A stretch of DNA of 22,621 bases, from the IMG/VR virus record IMGVR_UViG_3300032116_001400, positions 1 to 22,621 of that record. One strand, written 5' to 3'. Below the pieces are notes generated by a model. The model worked only from the letters and a program-made list of their open reading frames with translations. It was not told the DNA's origin and searched no databases. This document shows positions 3,168 to 20,552 of the stretch, in pieces; the stretch's first letter is position 1, and the number at the start of each line of letters is the position of its first letter. A program made the position numbers and the translations under genes. This DNA comes from a virus.

Positions 3168-4910
3168 ATGGCAGATAAATCTATATTCGGCAGGTTACAA
3201 AAACTATTTTCAACAAACACTATAATTCGTAAAACTCCAGATGGGGTAAAGGTTGTAGATACGGATGAGTATCAATCTATGACAACCAATCTTGTTGATC
3301 GTTTTATGAAATTAAAGGTTAGTAATTATGCAGGCGGAGTAGAATCCGGATTGGCATATCAACAAGTCCGTATTGATCTTTTTAGAGATTATGATTCAAT
3401 GGATATGGATCCAATCATTAGTGCCGCACTTAATGTATATGCGGATGAGTGTACTGCTAGAAATGAATTTGGAAATGTTTTAAAAATTCATCATGAAGAT
3501 GATAATATAAAACAAATTTTAGAAAACTTATTTTACGATATTCTAAATATAGAACATAATTTGTGGATGTGGAGCCGTAATTTGGTAAAATACGGTGATT
3601 TTTATTTACAATTGGAGATGGCAGAAGGATTGGGTATTGTAAATGTTTTACCATTATCAACGTATGAAATGAGTAGAATTGAAGGATTTGATCCACAAAA
3701 TCCACAAAGAGTTAAATTTGTTTACGCTCCATATCAAAATCCATATAATGCAGTTGGACAAAGTGCAAAAAAAGAATACGAAAATTACGAGATTGCACAC
3801 TTTCGTTTGAATGGTGATGCAAACTTTTTACCATATGGTAAATCAATGATAGAGGGCGGCCGCCGAGTTTGGAAACAATTATCACTTATGGAAGATGCAA
3901 TGCTAATTCATAGAGTGATGCGTGCACCGGAAAAAAGAATATTCAAAGTTGATGTAGGTAATATTCCCCCAAATGAGGTTGATAATTACATGCAGAAAAT
4001 TATAAACAACTCCAAAAAAGTACCATTTGTTGATGAGAGAACAGGCGAATATAACTTAAAGTATAATATTCAAAACCTTATCGAAGATTATTATATGCCA
4101 GTTCGTGGTAATGATAGTGGAACATCAATTGATACCCTAAAGGGGTTGGAATATAATATGATTGATGATATCAACTATTTAAAAGGAAAAATGTTAGCCG
4201 CACTTCAAATTCCAAAAGCATTTATAGGATATGAAGAAGAAACAAATGGTAAAGCTACTTTAGCGGGAATGGATGTTCGTTTTGCAAAAACGATTGAGAG
4301 AATCCAAAGAACTATGATTTCCGAATTGACAAAAATAGCTATAATTCATTTATATGCACAAGGAATAAACGATGAGAGATTGACTAATTTTTCTTTAGAA
4401 TTAACCATTCCTTCAAAAATATATGAGCAAGAAAAAGTTGAATTGTATACTGCAAAAGTACAACTAATAACATCCATGCAACAAACAAAGATGTTCTCTA
4501 AAGAATGGATGTATGAAGCAATTATGGGAATGGCCAAAGATGAACAAGATCAACAAACATTGGCCGTATTGGAAGATACAAAACAACAATTCCGTTTAAC
4601 ATCTATCGAAACGCAAGGTGTAGATCCTGCGAAAGAAACAGGAACAGAAGCACCTACAAACGTTGAAGAAGAAATTGCAAAAATAAAAGCTGAATTGGAA
4701 GAAGATGGTGTTGGTAGACCTAAAGATTCTGTTAGATATGGTAAAGATGACCATCCGGAGGGAAGAGACCCATTAGGAATTAAAACTCTTAAACAAAAGG
4801 AAGGATCGGTAAAATATAAACCAAGAAAAACACCATATTTAGAAATATTCAAAGATATGAATGGAAATAAAAAGAGAATTTTGACAGAGGATATAACAAA
4901 AGAGCAATAA
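3168..4910 (+). CDS. Portal vertex protein (T4 gp20-type)
   Basis: The portal is the dodecameric ring at the unique head vertex: it starts prohead assembly, carries DNA during packaging and later binds the neck. The length, 580 residues, is close to T4 gp20. The recognisable region begins with LAYQQVRIDLFRDYDSMD and continues DPIISAALNVYADE (about residues 63-94), the gp20-type 'all sides of the diagonal' N-terminal motif. Further conserved stretches are YGDFYLQLE, the stem-like region with VMRAPEKRIFKVDVGNIPP, and KMLAALQIPKAFIGYEEE (about residues 344-361). The C-terminal 80 residues are charged and probably flexible. The gap upstream (3119-3167) is A-rich with a weak variant of the recurrent element (cgtatattaa) and no Shine-Dalgarno sequence. 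Confidence 0.93.
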   Translation: MADKSIFGRLQKLFSTNTIIRKTPDGVKVVDTDEYQSMTTNLVDRFMKLKVSNYAGGVESGLAYQQVRIDLFRDYDSMDMDPIISAALNVYADECTARNEFGNVLKIHHEDDNIKQILENLFYDILNIEHNLWMWSRNLVKYGDFYLQLEMAEGLGIVNVLPLSTYEMSRIEGFDPQNPQRVKFVYAPYQNPYNAVGQSAKKEYENYEIAHFRLNGDANFLPYGKSMIEGGRRVWKQLSLMEDAMLIHRVMRAPEKRIFKVDVGNIPPNEVDNYMQKIINNSKKVPFVDERTGEYNLKYNIQNLIEDYYMPVRGNDSGTSIDTLKGLEYNMIDDINYLKGKMLAALQIPKAFIGYEEETNGKATLAGMDVRFAKTIERIQRTMISELTKIAIIHLYAQGINDERLTNFSLELTIPSKIYEQEKVELYTAKVQLITSMQQTKMFSKEWMYEAIMGMAKDEQDQQTLAVLEDTKQQFRLTSIETQGVDPAKETGTEAPTNVEEEIAKIKAELEEDGVGRPKDSVRYGKDDHPEGRDPLGIKTLKQKEGSVKYKPRKTPYLEIFKDMNGNKKRILTEDITKEQ

Positions 4911-6256: not shown

Positions 6257-6559
6257 ATGAATATAAATCAATTAAAAGAACTTATTAAGGAAGTCATTAA
6301 AGAGGAGCAAGATTATCAACAATTATTTAAAACTATGTTAGATAAAAGTGGTAAATCTATAGAATCCATGTCCGATGAGGAAAAAAAGAAATTTTTCAAT
6401 GCAGTTGATAAGGCATATAAAGCAAAGCAAGAGGGAAAGTTGAGAGGATATAATGAATTGACTGATAAGCAAAAACAAATTGATGTTGATAAGGATGGTG
6501 AAATTGAAGGATCAGACTTAGCAACATTGAGAGCAAAAAACGAAGAAAAAAAAAAGTAA
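6257..6559 (+). CDS. EF-hand-like prohead-cluster protein; probable upstream part of a frameshifted product
   Basis: The zero-frame product has 100 residues and starts one base after the previous stop. It has an N-terminal helix MNINQLKELIKEVIKEE, then MSDEEKKKFFNAVDKAYKAK, a phrase I recall from other phage virion-cluster proteins. A canonical EF-hand loop follows, DVDKDGEIEGSD (residues 76-87), with D at loop positions 1, 3 and 5, G at 6, I at 8, and acidic residues at 9 and 12. This predicts calcium binding. It ends NEEKKK at a TAA immediately after A AAA AAG. The -1 frame continues into a membrane protein without a good start of its own, so a 237-residue fusion is likely. Confidence 0.75.
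   Translation: MNINQLKELIKEVIKEEQDYQQLFKTMLDKSGKSIESMSDEEKKKFFNAVDKAYKAKQEGKLRGYNELTDKQKQIDVDKDGEIEGSDLATLRAKNEEKKK
6550..6556 (+). other. Candidate -1 ribosomal frameshift site A AAA AAG
   Basis: An A10 run (6546-6555) ends in the heptamer A AAA AAG in the zero frame, the same slippery heptamer used in E. coli dnaX. It is followed directly by the zero-frame TAA (6557-6559). Slipping back one base gives Lys-Lys-Val-Asn-Glu-Asn-Phe and enters the downstream frame, which stays open to 6969. A lost A in a long homopolymer would look the same. Confidence 0.55.
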
Positions 6560-6969
6560 ATGAGAACTTTGCCGTAGGATTATTATCCGTTTTGGGTAGT
6601 ATCATTATTGGTAAAGTTGTTTTTTATTATTTATATGATTTAGTTAGAAGGGGAATGAGTTATTTCTCCGGAAAACCAAATTACAAAGATGCGGTTAAAA
6701 AAGTTTTAGATTCAATGGCAAACAATAAAAGAGTTGCGGATGATATATCTAAAATAATTGACCCAGAAAGAGGAATGGATAATGGAACGACTGATAAAAT
6801 TGTGAAGATGGGGTACGTTCAAAATAGTATTCAAAAAGTTATAGATAAAAATAAAGATGGATTGGATAAGACGGAATTGGAAAATCAATTAAAAATTATA
6901 ATTTCCAAGTCTTGGGATGATTTAGGTGATAAGGCGGTAGATAAAGTAAAAAATGATTTAAAAAAATGA
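6556..6969 (+). CDS. Single-span membrane protein, probably made as the -1 frame extension of the EF-hand gene
   Basis: This is the frame that continues after the slippery site; 137 codons run to the TGA at 6967-6969, which overlaps the protease ATG (ATGA). The hydrophobic segment NFAVGLLSVLGSIIIGKVVF (from about 6565) runs into YYLYDLVRRG, a plausible membrane span with a positive flank. The only conventional start, TTG at 6592, falls inside this span, which argues that translation enters from upstream. The soluble part contains a degenerate, one-residue-short EF-like loop (DKNKDGLDKTEL, 6844-6879) and amphipathic helices. A membrane protein in the head cluster may tether the assembling prohead to the membrane; this is inference. 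Confidence 0.65.
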   Translation, partial: VNENFAVGLLSVLGSIIIGKVVFYYLYDLVRRGMSYFSGKPNYKDAVKKVLDSMANNKRVADDISKIIDPERGMDNGTTDKIVKMGYVQNSIQKVIDKNKDGLDKTELENQLKIIISKSWDDLGDKAVDKVKNDLKK

Positions 6970-7556
6970 ATAAGAATCTTCTGATAGAAACACACCTTTT
7001 TGAAGCAAAGCTTGTAAAAGAAGAGAATGGAACTTATTTAGTTTCTGGTATCTTACAAAGAGCCGGTGCTCCAAATCAAAATAATAGAAGATATCCAAAA
7101 GAAATTCTTGAAAGAGAGTGTAAAAAGTATAATCAACTAATTAAAGAAAGAAGAGCATTGGGTGAATTGGATCATCCAGATTCCCCAGTAATAAATTTAA
7201 AAAACGTATCACACAATATCAGAGAAATTTGGTGGGAGGGTGATGATGTTATGGGAAAAGTTGAAATATTATCAACACCATCCGGCAATATCCTAAAAGA
7301 ACTATTAAAGAATAATATTCGTTTGGGAATTTCATCAAGAGGATTGGGTTCTGTAAAAGAACTTAATGATGGAACTGTTATGGTACAAGAAGATTTTGAA
7401 TTGGTAGGGTGGGATTTTGTTTCAAACCCATCAACACATGGAGCATTTATGGCACCATTACAGGAGAGTAAGCAGTGGGCAAAAATAGCAGAAGAATGTG
7501 GAAAATGGTGTAGAGCACAAGACCTTATGAGAGAAATTATAATTGAATTAAATTAA
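6966..7556 (+). CDS. Prohead core protease (T4 gp21-type serine peptidase)
   Basis: The protease sits inside the prohead and, once activated, cuts scaffold, capsid and other core proteins after Glu in (L/I)xE sites, clearing space for DNA. The 196-residue product has NRRYPKEIL near residues 40-48, then GELDHPDSP (His70), MGKVEIL, and the serine region LGISSRGLGSV (Ser123/Ser124), followed by FELVGWDFVSNPS (Asp150 nearby). These are the conserved His and Ser blocks of the T4-type prohead peptidase family. The N-terminus NLLIETHLFEAK has two (L)xE sites that could be self-cleavage points. Its ATG overlaps the upstream TGA, so production may be coupled to the frameshifted membrane protein. Confidence 0.92.
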   Translation: MNKNLLIETHLFEAKLVKEENGTYLVSGILQRAGAPNQNNRRYPKEILERECKKYNQLIKERRALGELDHPDSPVINLKNVSHNIREIWWEGDDVMGKVEILSTPSGNILKELLKNNIRLGISSRGLGSVKELNDGTVMVQEDFELVGWDFVSNPSTHGAFMAPLQESKQWAKIAEECGKWCRAQDLMREIIIELN

Positions 7557-7561
7557 TATAA

Positions 7562-8092
7562 ATGGCAAAGTTAGTAAATTTTATACCTGGTAGACAAATC
7601 CAAAAAGAAGCATTGGATGATATGGATGCTCCATTACCGGCCCAAATGGAACGGTTTTTGGATAGAGCCATAAGAGTAATTAGAGGATATAATTTATCTA
7701 GAAAAAAAGAACAATTTGTGATAGCAAAGATTATTGATGCATTGGGATTAAGCCCGGCTGAATTATCGCAAGCAGTTCAAAAATTGAAAAAAAATAAAGT
7801 AGTAAGTAGATTAAATGAAGCTCCTGATATGGATATTTCATCGTTGGTTAAAAAAATAGAAAAACATACCGATAGAAATGCACATACCGATGCAGTAATT
7901 GAATTGGCAAAGTTTTTAAAACAAAAAAAGTTTGAAAATATTTTAAATTCAATTATGGATATTCATCTTGAAATGGGTAGTATGCCAGCAGAACTTTCAA
8001 AATTGAGAGGACAGATATTGGATGAACTTATGAAGATGGTAAGAAATAAGTACGGAAACGATATTTATAAACAAATAAATTCGGTATACTAA
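7562..8092 (+). CDS. Conserved helical prohead-cluster protein, function unknown
   Basis: The 176-residue protein starts 5 bp after the protease stop. It is helical and has no membrane segment. A likely conserved block is MERFLDRAIRVIRGYNLSRK followed by FVIAKIIDALGLSPAEL (about residues 29-66). The second half (DISSLVKKIEKHTDR and a Lys-rich helical stretch) ends in a hairpin-like region LDELMKMVRNKYGNDIY. I recall similar 'FLDRAIRxIxGYNLSRKKEQ' sequences between protease and scaffold genes of marine T4-like phages, unannotated. The position suggests a core or chaperone role; nothing more can be supported. Confidence 0.75.
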   Translation: MAKLVNFIPGRQIQKEALDDMDAPLPAQMERFLDRAIRVIRGYNLSRKKEQFVIAKIIDALGLSPAELSQAVQKLKKNKVVSRLNEAPDMDISSLVKKIEKHTDRNAHTDAVIELAKFLKQKKFENILNSIMDIHLEMGSMPAELSKLRGQILDELMKMVRNKYGNDIYKQINSVY

Positions 8093-10709: not shown

Positions 10710-12317
10710 ATGGATTTAAAACAAATTATGCAAGGGAAAAACCCACAAAACATAATGCTTGAGCAAACCAGAGGTTTGAAAAGCAAGTGGGAAAAAACAG
10801 GATTACTCGAAGGAGTTGGTTCTGAAACGCAAAAGCATGGTATGGCAGTAATGCTTGAAAACCAGGCAAAGCAATTACTTGATGAAGCTACTAGAACAGG
10901 TACTTCAGCAGGTTCAGAAGAGTGGGCAGGTGTAGCTCTTCCATTGGTTAGACGTATCTTTGGTTCAATCGCAGCTAAAGAGTTCGTTTCTGTACAACCA
11001 ATGAACTTACCATCAGGTCTTATTTTCTATATGGATTTCAAATATGGTACTAACACTACATTAGGTAGACCAGCTTCTGGTTCTTCTATGTTCGGTAACG
11101 GTGGCGGATTTGGTAAAGATAATTTAGCTCCTTCTGGAAACAAACTTGGTTCTACTCAAGAAACTGAAGGTGGTCTTTACGGTGCAGGTAGATTCGGATA
11201 TACAATCAACGATACTACTGCAACAGTAACCGCAACTGTAACTACAGCTTCTTGGTCTGATGTAAATTTTGATAATGATTTATCAGCATCTATTGCATCT
11301 GCTAATTCAAGAGTAATGAAAGTTAAAGTTGGTTTACCAGCTGATGCTGATTGGCAAGGTGTTAGAGCATTCAAAATTTCAGGTTCTGCAACTACAACGT
11401 TGTTCCCAGAATATACTATCGTTGATAGTTATGGTTCTGCATCATTCGTACTTTCTGGATCTGCAGTTACCGATACAAACGTTGCAACGCAAGTATTGAC
11501 TTATCATTTACAACCAACAGATTACAACAGAGGTGATTTCGAAGATAAAGGTTCTGACCTTCCAATTCCTGAAATCGAACTTGAATTGAAATCTGAACCA
11601 ATCGTTGCAAAAACTCGTAAGTTAAAGGCTATCTGGACTCCAGAATTGGCACAAGACTTGAACGCATACCATTCAGTAGATGCGGAAGCTGAATTAACTC
11701 AAATGCTTTCTGAATATATCTCTCTTGAGATTGATTTGGAAATCCTTGAAATGCTTCAGCAAAATGCATTCACTACTGATTACTGGTCTGCAAGAGTTGG
11801 ATATGATTGGAACGGTTCTGGTTTCGCAATCGATGCAAACGCAGCAGCAGCATCTGCTTACACAAAGAGCACTTGGTATCAAACTTTGGGTATCAAATTG
11901 CAGAAAGTTTCTAACAAAATTCACCAATTGACTATGAGAGGTGGTGCAAACTTCTTGGTTGTATCTCCAAACGTAGCAACAATTCTTGAATCTATGAACG
12001 GATTCTCTGCAAACCCAGGTAAAGATGCTTTACAGTTCGCAGCAGGTGTTACTAACATTGGTTCAATCTCTAACAGATATGATGTGTATAAGAATCCTTA
12101 TATGACTGAAAACGTAATCTTGTTAGGTTTCAAAGGTTCTAACTTCTTCGAAACAGGAGCAGTTTACGCACCTTATGTACCATTGATTATGACTCCGTTA
12201 GTTTATGACCCAACCAACTTCACTCCAAGAAGAGGTGTGATGACTAGATACGCTAAGAAAATCGTAAGACCAGAGTTTTACGGTAAGATTATCGTTGAAG
12301 GTTTACACTCTCTCTAA
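10710..12317 (+). CDS. Major capsid protein (T4 gp23-type)
   Basis: This HK97-fold shell protein has 535 residues, against 521 for T4 gp23. The N-terminus carries a propeptide with TGLLEGVGSE; cutting after Glu34 (LLE|G) would give a 501-residue mature chain. Recognisable parts are PLVRRIFGSIAAKEFVSVQP and MNLPSGLIFYMDFKYGT (about 87-124), and the C-terminal GAVYAPYVPLIMTPLV and FTPRRGVMTRYAKK, all gp23-type. The region about 165-270 is Thr/Ser-rich and probably holds an inserted surface domain. It is 28 bp after the scaffold, with no Shine-Dalgarno sequence but an A/T-rich leader; probably co-transcribed with the scaffold and ended by the terminator at 12364. Confidence 0.95.
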   Translation: MDLKQIMQGKNPQNIMLEQTRGLKSKWEKTGLLEGVGSETQKHGMAVMLENQAKQLLDEATRTGTSAGSEEWAGVALPLVRRIFGSIAAKEFVSVQPMNLPSGLIFYMDFKYGTNTTLGRPASGSSMFGNGGGFGKDNLAPSGNKLGSTQETEGGLYGAGRFGYTINDTTATVTATVTTASWSDVNFDNDLSASIASANSRVMKVKVGLPADADWQGVRAFKISGSATTTLFPEYTIVDSYGSASFVLSGSAVTDTNVATQVLTYHLQPTDYNRGDFEDKGSDLPIPEIELELKSEPIVAKTRKLKAIWTPELAQDLNAYHSVDAEAELTQMLSEYISLEIDLEILEMLQQNAFTTDYWSARVGYDWNGSGFAIDANAAAASAYTKSTWYQTLGIKLQKVSNKIHQLTMRGGANFLVVSPNVATILESMNGFSANPGKDALQFAAGVTNIGSISNRYDVYKNPYMTENVILLGFKGSNFFETGAVYAPYVPLIMTPLVYDPTNFTPRRGVMTRYAKKIVRPEFYGKIIVEGLHSL

Positions 12318-17044: not shown

Positions 17045-17530
17045 ATGGCAACACTAATACAAATAAAACAAATAGAGAGTAGTTCGTTCTTAATACAGGC
17101 AGCAGTACTTGCACAAACATTTACCGAATCTGTAACGGCTGTAGTTGATTATATTGGAGTGGTATCCGCATCATCGCAATTGACCGGTGCATATGATTTA
17201 AGATATGCGCTTAGTGGAACAGTTGGAGGTGGGGCATCCGATTGGAATAATCTAACAGGAATACCACAAGGATTGATATCATCATCAGCTCAATTGGATG
17301 GAACAACTCTTAAAAATATCACAATATCTACTGCTGATGCTGATTCTTACTCATTAATAGTGAGTGGTGCTATGGGTGTCGTGGATGCAAATAACTTACC
17401 AGAAGGACCTAATGCGGATGATACAAATGTTCCTGCACAGATTTATTTAGCAGGAGGAACTGTTCTTCCGGCAGACCCATCGGCTAGTGGAAGTGCGGAT
17501 GCAAATATTATAGATCAAGGAGAGTGGTAA
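17045..17530 (+). CDS. Short fibre-type structural protein
   Basis: The 161-residue protein starts directly after the previous stop. It is poor in charge and rich in Ser, Ala, Gly. The N-terminal helix (LIQIKQIESSSFLIQAAVLA) could trimerise. The segment DWNNLTGIPQGLISSSAQLD resembles a linker I recall from marine phage tail-fibre proteins ('IPxGxISSSAQ'). The C-terminus ends NIIDQGEW, which resembles the end of the next, much larger fibre (NVIDGGSF). It is probably a small fibre subunit or adaptor. Confidence 0.6.
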   Translation: MATLIQIKQIESSSFLIQAAVLAQTFTESVTAVVDYIGVVSASSQLTGAYDLRYALSGTVGGGASDWNNLTGIPQGLISSSAQLDGTTLKNITISTADADSYSLIVSGAMGVVDANNLPEGPNADDTNVPAQIYLAGGTVLPADPSASGSADANIIDQGEW

Positions 17531-17543
17531 TCAAAAAAAAAAT

Positions 17544-17600: not shown

Positions 17601-20552
17601 ATGGCACAAATAATTAAGCACAGGCGTGGTAGTTTAGAAGCACTATCAAACGTAACCGCATCACTATCAAAGGGTGAAATAGTAATAGCATCGGGTTCAT
17701 CCAATATATCACCTACTAATGGATCATCCATTGTATTTGCAGCAGTTGAAAATGGACAAGTACAGGCTGTAAACAGAGTATTGCGTGGAACAACCGTACC
17801 CAATACATTTTCAAACGCAGCTTATAATGGATTAGTTAATGGTGTTCCATATTATGTTAGTGCATCAAACGTTACACCAACTTTATATTTGTTGGGAACC
17901 GATGCAAATGAAGCCATAAATTTAATAGGTAACATACAACCATTCTCCCAATCGGTTGATACAAGATTGGATGCATTGGAACAATCAATTGGAGCAGGCG
18001 ATGTTGGAACAAGTATAAATTTCTTAAACGCATATACTGGATCTAATAATGCTAGACTTAATGCAATTGAAGTATCTACAGGATCTATAAACAATTTTAC
18101 CGCATCGACTGCAGCAAGCTTAACTAACTTAAACGTATCATCCGCATCACAGCAGACCAGTATTAACGCAATAAATGTTAGTACGGGTTCATTAAATACA
18201 TTTACCGCATCCGCTGCAAGTAGATTAACTAATTTAGAATTAGATTCGGCAAGTAACGATGCAAGTGTTGCAAGTTTAAATTCATACACTGCATCGGTGA
18301 GCGCCAGCTTGTGGAATTTGAATACATATACTAACTCCGTAAGTGCGAGTATATTGAATTTAAACATCAGTTCGGGTTCACAACAGGCATCTCTAAACGC
18401 ATTGAGTGTAAGTACCGGATCGTTAAACACATATACGGCATCCGCAACTAGCAGATTTAATAATTTAGAATTAACTTCAGCAAGCGTAAATGCAAGTGTT
18501 GCGGCATTAAATATCAGTACATCATCTTTGAATGGTTTTACTGCATCAACTGCTGCAAGTTTGACTAACTTAAACGTATCATCCGCATCGCAGCAGGCTT
18601 CAATAAATGCGATAAATGTTAGTACAAGCTCATTAAATACATTCACAGGATCTGCAGCAAATAGATTGAGCAGTTTGGAATCCAAAACTGGATCATACGC
18701 AACTACCGGATCAAATACATTTAACGGTACACAGGTCATTAGTGGATCTGTATATATAACGCAAGATTTAATAGTAATAGGTTCATCATCTATTTCAAAT
18801 ATTAGTGCTAGTGTTCTTAACATTGGTGATAATCAAATAACATTAAATACATTCACACCTGCAATTAGGTTTGGTGGTATAAGTGTTATTGATTCGGGAT
18901 CAACGGGTGGAACGGGTTCATTGTGGTGGGATAGTGTGAATAATCACTGGATATATGAACATCCAGCTGATTCGGAAGATCCTTATAATTCTGCAATGCT
19001 TATCTCCGGCCCTAAAAACACCGGAACATTAGGAAATGAAGTTGGATTGACAAGTGGTTCGTTCCCAATGGCAATTGGTGATGACCATATATCAAGTTCA
19101 ATAATGTCACAGGCTACTGATAATACAAAAGTTATTATAGCAGGTGGTTTGGATGTTCTGGCTGAATTAAGTGCATCCACTATTACGGGTATTGGAAATG
19201 TTACATCATTCTCCCAATCAGTTGATAGTAGGTTGGATGCAGTTGAGGCATCAATTGGTGGTGGTTCTGTAACATCTGCAATCAATGCATTGAATGCAAG
19301 TACCGCATCATTAAATGCATCCAGCGCATCCCAACAGACTAGCATAAACGCATTAAATGCAAGTTCCGCATCGCTCAATACATTTACAGCATCTGCAGCG
19401 AGTAGATTAAGTAATCTTGAAACAAAATCGGGAAGTGTAGATAGTAGTGTAAGTAATTTAAACTTATACACTGCATCTGTAAGTGCTAGTTTGTGGAATA
19501 TTAATACCTACACAAATTCAGTTAGTGCAAGTGTATTAAACCTCAACATCAGTTCTGGTTCACAACAAGCTTCAATTACTGCATTGAGTGTGAGTACGGG
19601 ATCCATAAACACATTCACATCATCCACAACTAGTAGATTAAACAATTTAGAATCTACATCTGCAAGTTCAACTGCGGGATTAACGGCAATAAACGCATCG
19701 ACAGCATCACTAAACTCATATACAGCATCTGTAAGTGCTAGTTTGTGGAATATAAACACTTATACCAACTCTGTAAGTGCAAGTGTATTAAACCTCAATA
19801 TAAGTTCTGGTTCACAACAGGCAAGTATTAGTGCATTGAGTGTGAGTACAGGTTCTTTAAATACATTTAGTGCATCAACCGCTGCATCATTAACAAACTT
19901 AAACACATATACGGCGGCGGTAAGTGTAAGTGTATTGAATTTAAATATCAGTTCGGGTTCGCAACAGACAAGCATTAATGCATTGAATGTCAGTACAGGA
20001 TCTATTAATACATTTACTGCATCGGCATCTAGTAGATTAAATAATTTGGAATTAGATTCCGCAAGTGCAGATGCAAGTATCGCTGCTTTAAACGTATCTA
20101 CGAGTTCAATAAACTCATATACATCATCATTAAAATCTGCAATATCTGTAAATGGAACCAACCTTACAGTTATAGGAGATTTGACTGTACAAGGTAGTAC
20201 CGTAACATTAAATACAACCGAACTTGTTGTAGAAGATAAGTTAATAGTATTGGCATCGGGATCAACGACATCATTGCAATCCGATGGTGCAGGTATATAC
20301 ATATCTGGATCTGGAGCAACATTTACCTACGCAAATACAGGCGACGCGTGGACAGCAAATAGACCTTTTAGCGGTTCAGCATTTACCGGATCATTCAATT
20401 TACCAACGGGTGGTTCAAGTAAAAGAATTGTTTTTAGAGAAACAACGGGTAATTTGGATTTGGTCATTGCACCTACCGTTGATGGTGATTTCTTACAATG
20501 GAACGGAAGTGCATTTACAATGAGTAATGTTATAGATGGTGGTTCGTTTTAA
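17601..20552 (+). CDS. Large heptad-repeat tail-fibre protein
   Basis: The 983-residue protein starts MAQIIKHRRGSLEALSN with LSKGEIVIAS, a common N-terminal motif of T4-type fibre/structural proteins. Two long Ser/Thr/Asn/Ala-rich heptad blocks follow (residues about 138-360 and 538-845), each preceded by a copy of FSQSVD-x-RLDA-x-E-x-SIG (114-131, 536-553). Between them is a beta module (370-525) with TQVISGSVYITQDLIVIGSS and LWWDSVNNHWIYEHP. The C-terminal module has NLTVIGDLTVQGSTVTLNTT and KLIVLASGS...DGAGIYI, a pattern familiar from marine phage fibres. It ends DFLQWNGSAFTMSNVIDGGS. The heptads predict a long trimeric rod between globular parts. It likely forms a tail or surface fibre; the receptor is unknown. 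Confidence 0.82.
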   Translation: MAQIIKHRRGSLEALSNVTASLSKGEIVIASGSSNISPTNGSSIVFAAVENGQVQAVNRVLRGTTVPNTFSNAAYNGLVNGVPYYVSASNVTPTLYLLGTDANEAINLIGNIQPFSQSVDTRLDALEQSIGAGDVGTSINFLNAYTGSNNARLNAIEVSTGSINNFTASTAASLTNLNVSSASQQTSINAINVSTGSLNTFTASAASRLTNLELDSASNDASVASLNSYTASVSASLWNLNTYTNSVSASILNLNISSGSQQASLNALSVSTGSLNTYTASATSRFNNLELTSASVNASVAALNISTSSLNGFTASTAASLTNLNVSSASQQASINAINVSTSSLNTFTGSAANRLSSLESKTGSYATTGSNTFNGTQVISGSVYITQDLIVIGSSSISNISASVLNIGDNQITLNTFTPAIRFGGISVIDSGSTGGTGSLWWDSVNNHWIYEHPADSEDPYNSAMLISGPKNTGTLGNEVGLTSGSFPMAIGDDHISSSIMSQATDNTKVIIAGGLDVLAELSASTITGIGNVTSFSQSVDSRLDAVEASIGGGSVTSAINALNASTASLNASSASQQTSINALNASSASLNTFTASAASRLSNLETKSGSVDSSVSNLNLYTASVSASLWNINTYTNSVSASVLNLNISSGSQQASITALSVSTGSINTFTSSTTSRLNNLESTSASSTAGLTAINASTASLNSYTASVSASLWNINTYTNSVSASVLNLNISSGSQQASISALSVSTGSLNTFSASTAASLTNLNTYTAAVSVSVLNLNISSGSQQTSINALNVSTGSINTFTASASSRLNNLELDSASADASIAALNVSTSSINSYTSSLKSAISVNGTNLTVIGDLTVQGSTVTLNTTELVVEDKLIVLASGSTTSLQSDGAGIYISGSGATFTYANTGDAWTANRPFSGSAFTGSFNLPTGGSSKRIVFRETTGNLDLVIAPTVDGDFLQWNGSAFTMSNVIDGGSF
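18012..18680 (+). repeat. Heptad-coding repeat block 1 of the first fibre gene
   Basis: The protein runs in 7-residue units such as SLNTYTA, SATSRFN, NLELTSA, SVNASVA, ALNISTS, SLNGFTA, with Leu/Ile/Val at the second position. This gives a 21-base DNA period and a higher-order repeat of 77 residues (11 heptads). Confidence 0.8.
19212..20135 (+). repeat. Heptad-coding repeat block 2 of the first fibre gene
   Basis: The same units recur after the central beta module, including two near-copies of SVSASLWNINTYTNSVSASV (about residues 626-645 and 710-729). Stretches of nearly 30 identical bases occur between copies (for example around 19475 and 19727). Confidence 0.8.

Follow-up and report, generated by a model that had tools for sequence, protein, structure and literature searches.

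The window analysed here is a 22.6-kb virus record (22,621 nt) that contains a T4-type head and packaging module with genes for a terminase, a portal protein, a prohead protease of the gp21 family and the major capsid protein gp23. An ORF of 100 codons that begins at position 6257 lies between the portal and prohead protease genes, and the original prediction proposed that a −1 frameshift at its 3′ end joins it to a membrane protein. The features of the locus are as follows.

From 338: terminase, a context gene of the head and packaging module
3168–4910, plus strand: portal protein (phrog_213, E 3e-62), context
6257–6559, plus strand: frame-0 ORF for the short product of 100 aa, with an amphipathic N-terminal helix, a helical region, a calcium loop and a C-terminal KKK
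6546–6555, plus strand: run of ten A (A10), possibly also a site of transcriptional slippage
6550–6556, plus strand: slippery heptamer A_AAA_AAG in frame 0, overlapped one codon earlier by A_AAA_AAA
6556–6969, plus strand: −1-frame extension of 137 aa (VNENFAVGLLSVLGSIIIGKVVFYY...), with a hydrophobic span and an all-helical domain and without a usable start of its own
6557–6559, plus strand: frame-0 stop TAA immediately 3′ of the heptamer (TAA or TAG in relatives)
6557–6564, plus strand: 8-nt spacer between the slippery site and the hairpin
6565–6618, plus strand: stem-loop, presumed frameshift stimulator (5′ arm 6565–6588, loop 6589–6593, 3′ arm 6594–6618)
6568–6624, plus strand: hydrophobic segment FAVGLLSVLGSIIIGKVVF, presumed membrane span, with an invariant Lys (K20)
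6966–7556, plus strand: prohead core protease (T4 gp21 family), whose ATG overlaps the stop of the fusion
10710–12317, plus strand: major capsid protein gp23 (PF07068, E 1e-76), context

Frame 0 runs from the ATG at 6257 and ends GAA GAA AAA AAA AAG TAA, with the G at 6556. The heptamer is thus set exactly on the stop, as predicted, and the −1 frame continues as GTA AAT GAG AAC TTT (VNENF...) to the TGA at 6967–6969. The predicted fusion length of 237 aa (100 + 137) and the overlap of this TGA with the protease ATG at 6966 are both confirmed, and the first ATG, GTG or TTG of the −1 frame is indeed the TTG at 6592 (codon 13), inside the hydrophobic stretch.

In the T4 gene order, the core proteins gp67 and gp68 sit between the portal and the protease, and the ORF at 6257 occupies the same interval; it does not lie between a major tail protein and a tape measure gene, where tail-assembly chaperones are encoded. 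Pfam and PHROG searches return nothing naming gp67 or gp68 among the matches to this gene. No match to the short protein or to the −1 extension is found among INPHARED phages, and none to the extension in the GTDB genomes. The nearest isolates by capsid and protease are Microcystis phage Mel-JY01 and the Flavobacterium phages immuto, in which neither part is present upstream of the protease.

Two further A runs were recorded in the window. A second A10 run on the plus strand (17533–17542) is intergenic, between an ORF that ends at 17530 and a fibre-like repetitive ORF (17601–20552, 983 aa); the latter carries many near-identical Ser/Ala/Asn-rich repeats (SASLWNLNTYTNSVSAS...), probably encodes a fibre and yields long spurious antisense ORFs. 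An A9 run at 382–390 in the 5′ part of the terminase gene (CCA AAA AAA AAT TTA) is the sole other coding run of nine or more A seen in the long ORFs of the window.

The short protein is predicted to be helical, with an N-terminal amphipathic helix (MNINQLKELIKEVIKEE) and one calcium loop of the dockerin/EF-hand type (DVDKDGEIEGSD). The loop follows the pattern DxDxDG.I...[DE], and its positions D76, D78, D80, G81, I83 and D87 are invariant in 29 proteins. The case for calling the upstream product an EF-hand protein is weaker than the original prediction had it: the loop is of the dockerin type (D at position 12), and the Pfam matches stay below the curated cut-off (Dockerin_1 scores 16.6 bits where 22.9 are required, and the best member has E 1e-3). 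The extension contains the anticipated membrane span, predicted from a 19-residue Kyte-Doolittle mean of 2.23 and including K20, and the helical domain past the span is modelled confidently (pLDDT 88). The second EF-like domain that had been suggested for the extension is not a family feature: DKNKDGLDKTEL is confined to close relatives of the window, and the family consensus DSTNGELDETEL lacks the loop. A structure search with the membrane product finds no match in the PDB (best E 1.2). It gives one viral match (E 1.4e-7), to the uncharacterised protein A0A6J5M8K1 (204 aa) from an uncultured phage.

Relatives of one or the other part lie at 164 loci, many of which overlap, in three scans of viral contigs, and the short, EF-hand-type protein has relatives on at least 435 contig stretches. 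Fifty non-redundant lineages of the membrane domain were defined (>5% different over 240 nt). The combination of an A9–A12 run, a frame-0 stop within one codon of the run and the membrane domain in the −1 frame is kept in 47 of the 50, and all 47 of these slip lineages have an in-frame slippery heptamer (A_AAA_AAG, A_AAA_AAA or A_AAA_AAC). The exceptions are L162 and L168, in which the domain has an in-frame ATG, and L113, in which it lies in the +1 frame. A single-frame fusion is found in none of the 71 distinct sequences, and the relatives come from many separate metagenomes. In ten related contigs (1.5 Mb), every domain-bearing genome has an A10 run at the junction and only three A10 runs occur elsewhere; A10 runs are entirely absent from the 209-kb and 106-kb contigs of two phages without the domain.

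These results bear on the alternative named in the original prediction, the loss of one A through a sequencing error or a true mutation, and likewise on assembly error or decay of a single-frame gene. Homopolymers are error-prone and the frame of L113 is odd, but a lost A is ruled out, since the run and the stop are kept in 47 of 50 lineages from many metagenomes and none is fused. The −1 frame shows purifying selection, and a 46-nt deletion within the EF-hand gene accounts for L113. By this comparison the gap between the reading frames is not a sequencing error, and error or decay as the source of the arrangement is vanishingly improbable. Replication errors are frequent in long A runs (PMC3711429) and could lead to phase variation, in which A10/A11 switching through replication slippage would give some phages the short form and others the fusion; this reading was rejected because none of the 71 distinct sequences is in the fused state, and it would leave the hairpin without a role, which makes it highly unlikely. 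With the run, the stop, coding selection in the −1 frame and the hairpin all conserved across relatives, the comparative evidence indicates that the candidate frameshift is very probably real.

In the −1 frame, dN/dS between relatives is 0.14 for codons 1–6, 0.31 for codons 1–12 and 0.29 for codons 13–45, and the remaining two frames have values above these. Since dN/dS is low from codon 1, selection begins at the codon following the slip, ahead of nearly all potential starts. The first in-frame start of the extension is scattered among relatives from codon 5 to beyond codon 50 and is conserved in none of these positions, and the first codons (GTA, ATA, CTA, TTA, GTT and ATT) are not standard starts; an open, coding −1 frame without its own start is the arrangement expected of −1 programmed ribosomal frameshifting (PRF). 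Two separate proteins, the membrane protein being initiated at one of these non-standard codons, by re-initiation, or at the internal TTG, would be in keeping with the stop immediately before the domain and with the free-standing versions of the domain that have an ATG. However, the first codons vary, the TTG, ATG and GTG positions are unconserved and mostly within or past the span, and a TAAATG past the run is in frame 0 and terminates after four codons. Re-initiation was rejected because of these unconserved starts and because the conserved A-run and hairpin would be left unexplained, and separate initiation in general appears very unlikely.

The sequence at 6565–6618 of the window folds into a hairpin of −20.2 kcal/mol (z −4.7 against dinucleotide shuffles). 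In a synonymous-shuffle test, 54-nt stretches along the −1 frame were compared with sequences in which the protein was kept and synonymous codons were drawn. In the clade of the window, the stretch starting 9 nt in has a mean z of about −4.1, and 32 of 34 lineages fall below −2 at the hairpin; the mean z of the other stretches is +0.5 to −1.7, and starts 27–63 nt in are near 0. In the hairpin alignment, 78.7% of cells are paired compared with 32–51% when the partner is slid, there are 48 compensatory cells, and none of 500 shuffles reaches the covariation score. The 8-nt spacer in the clade of the window falls within the approximately 5–9 nt past the slippery site at which a structure is expected for −1 PRF, and the slippery A_AAA_AAG, stop, spacer and hairpin together reproduce the standard anatomy of such a signal. 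RNAalifold returned a consensus energy of only −0.45 kcal/mol for the whole 29-sequence alignment, after which transcriptional slippage was the first-favoured reading; single folds and the synonymous-shuffle tests then revealed the strong hairpin that averaging had hidden.

The hairpin is weak at the same place in the VVNEG sister clade (13 lineages, z −1.2 to −1.9) and in L162 and L168 (mean z −1.25), and L166 is slip-bearing yet without it (z −0.3). Upstream of the run, the sequence of the window itself folds (z −5.9 against dinucleotide shuffles); across relatives, structure is not conserved in stretches ending before the run (mean z +0.4 to −0.9), and inspection by eye revealed no conserved Shine-Dalgarno-like stimulator. 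A hairpin at the right spacing with compensatory changes makes ribosomal −1 frameshifting the best mechanism, and the gene at 6257 is likely to carry a −1 PRF cassette. In the clade of the window, a ribosomal slip, perhaps aided by transcriptional slippage, is likewise the probable source of the fusion as judged from the conserved signals.

The length of the A-run bears on the contribution of the polymerase. In 63,306 coding codons outside the junction, one run of nine or more A is seen against 58.6 expected from synonymous shuffles, whereas the bare heptamer A_AAA_AAG in frame occurs elsewhere about as often as expected (46 against 46.2). Long A runs are avoided in every frame, and the avoidance tracks run length rather than the in-frame heptamer. 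At the junction, A9–A12 is maintained in all 47 slip lineages through varied residues (EKKK, QKKK, VKKKK, VKKKR and QKKN), and this length exceeds what a heptamer requires and matches what polymerase slippage requires, a homopolymer of about 8–9 or more A. Poly-A runs of such size slip in bacterial transcription (PMC4256274, PMC3711429, PMC5009743), as in dnaX (PMC3711429) and in the A11 run of Citrobacter tssM1, where slippage of approximately 20–25% adds an A (PMC4256274).

If the polymerase added an A (A10 to A11) in some transcripts, normal translation would give the 237-aa fusion. This explanation agrees with the retention of A9–A12 by compensating amino acids, with the avoidance of long runs elsewhere, with the status of A10 and A11 as known slippage sites (PMC4256274, PMC3711429) and with the lack of a strong hairpin in the VVNEG clade. 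However, transcriptional slippage needs no downstream hairpin, as RNA that is not yet made cannot affect the polymerase at the run, and the hairpin is strongly selected in the clade of the window. Additionally, apart from the deletion variant L113, the domain invariably occupies the −1 frame, and the avoidance of long runs may stem from replication errors instead. Transcriptional slippage as the mechanism in its own right is rather unlikely. The near absence of such runs from other coding DNA suggests that polymerase slippage may contribute to ribosomal frameshifting, and it could dominate in the VVNEG clade, where the hairpin is weak.

Natural variants reveal how the cassette has changed. In L162–L164 and L168, the membrane domain is a free-standing gene with an ATG and begins MIKLKSILIEVMKKKSVNEN... 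In the tree, L162 and L168 are close to the slip-bearing L166 and nested within the slip-bearing set, which indicates that the own start is probably a derived state. The new N-terminus of these lineages resembles the N-terminus encoded by a nearby gene of the head region (MIKLKHILRETEE at 8092), so that the membrane domain follows such a tag wherever its N-terminus can be read, either by fusion or on its own. The upstream partner varies as well: L166 has an additional domain before KKKK, L019, L036 and L037 have a different C-terminal part, and in the EVFNKMAQKKK group the cassette sits behind an altered upstream partner. In L135 (601–1689), the EF-hand gene is joined to its upstream neighbour in one ORF, and an A11 run and a stop still precede the membrane domain. 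The cassette thus survives changes of its partner (L166, L135, L019/L036/L037). In L113 (2239–2508), part of the calcium loop is lost to the 46-nt deletion, which also shifts the frame and places the domain in +1, where it would need a +1 shift or one A fewer.

Two observations were made elsewhere in the related contigs. L166 encodes a further small protein at 4418–4855 (MSQKEPLNELGLLAILGTIAFFGFI...), a few genes past the protease, with its own start and probably membrane-bound. The large related contigs L173 (1457–1466) and L174 (reverse strand, approximately 1259–1268) have another A10 run in common, which lies some 9.3 kb upstream, in frame within another ORF (LDEKKNLKEKLS), and is possibly another slippage site.

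In the proposed ribosomal mechanism, the majority of ribosomes would terminate at the TAA at 6557 and release the 100-aa soluble protein. The hairpin at 6565–6618 would hold up a fraction, which would move back one base on A_AAA_AAG, with tRNALys re-pairing on AAA/AAA, and bypass the stop. Reading in the −1 frame would give a 237-aa protein with the shared N-terminal part, the membrane span and the helical domain, at a ratio to the short form set by the slip; extra-A transcripts from the A10 run may encode the identical fusion. A broader reading, a dual-mode recoding cassette that combines a polymerase-slippery A9–A12 run, a ribosomal heptamer and a hairpin with a constant membrane domain and a changing upstream partner, is put forward tentatively.

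The shared N-terminus may be a prohead-targeting tag, in line with the concept of the capsid targeting sequence in T4 internal proteins (PMC3012670), and such a tag would bring both forms together in the assembly of the nascent head. As a probably minor protein, anchored in the membrane and associated with the prohead, the fusion could, we infer, tether either the core or the portal to the inner membrane; alternatively, it could be packaged and become membrane-active on DNA entry. That the gene supplies a soluble major and a membrane-bound minor form of one prohead-associated protein is conceivable but somewhat doubtful.

Among tailed phages, the best-known cases of recoding are those of the tail chaperones, and here a conserved frameshift in the head region would add a membrane domain. 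The cassette suggests that soluble and membrane-bound forms are made in a fixed ratio for head assembly or for DNA entry. Gene callers will either overlook the membrane domain or start it at the false TTG. The set of A-run lengths, with and without the hairpin, and the own-ATG relatives are good material for separating ribosomal from transcriptional slippage. If the dual-mode cassette is true, it would be the first such recoded gene in a T4-type head module and would set how much prohead protein is soluble and how much is tethered to the membrane, a few relatives having swapped the slip for a separate start.

The kind of mechanism is already known; a description of this gene family, its location and its membrane extension was not found in a literature search. 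The signal is like the −1 PRF of dnaX and IS elements in its A_AAA_AAG heptamer, nearby stop and downstream stem-loop at short spacing, but here 9–12 A are kept, the stop is right at the heptamer, there is no clear Shine-Dalgarno-like element, and the gene belongs to a phage head region and gains a membrane extension. The slip in E. coli dnaX leads to the shorter product, whereas here it would lead to the longer one. The transcriptional-slippage genes Citrobacter tssM1 (A11), Shigella spa13 and mxiE and Thermus dnaX (PMC4256274, PMC5009743, PMC3711429) share the long A/T run and two length variants, and an extra A would give the identical fusion here, but the present locus has a conserved downstream hairpin with compensatory changes. 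T4 gp67/gp68 and the capsid-targeted internal proteins are similar in the position between portal and protease and in an N-terminal helix with L/IxE motifs resembling protease sites, but there is no sequence match. The T4 core and internal proteins are not known to be recoded or to have a membrane domain. As in lambda gpG/gpGT and other tail-assembly chaperones (PMC5009743), a −1 slip near the end of a small morphogenesis gene would produce a minor C-terminal extension, but here the gene lies between the portal and the prohead protease rather than between the tail protein and the tape measure, and the extension is a membrane domain.
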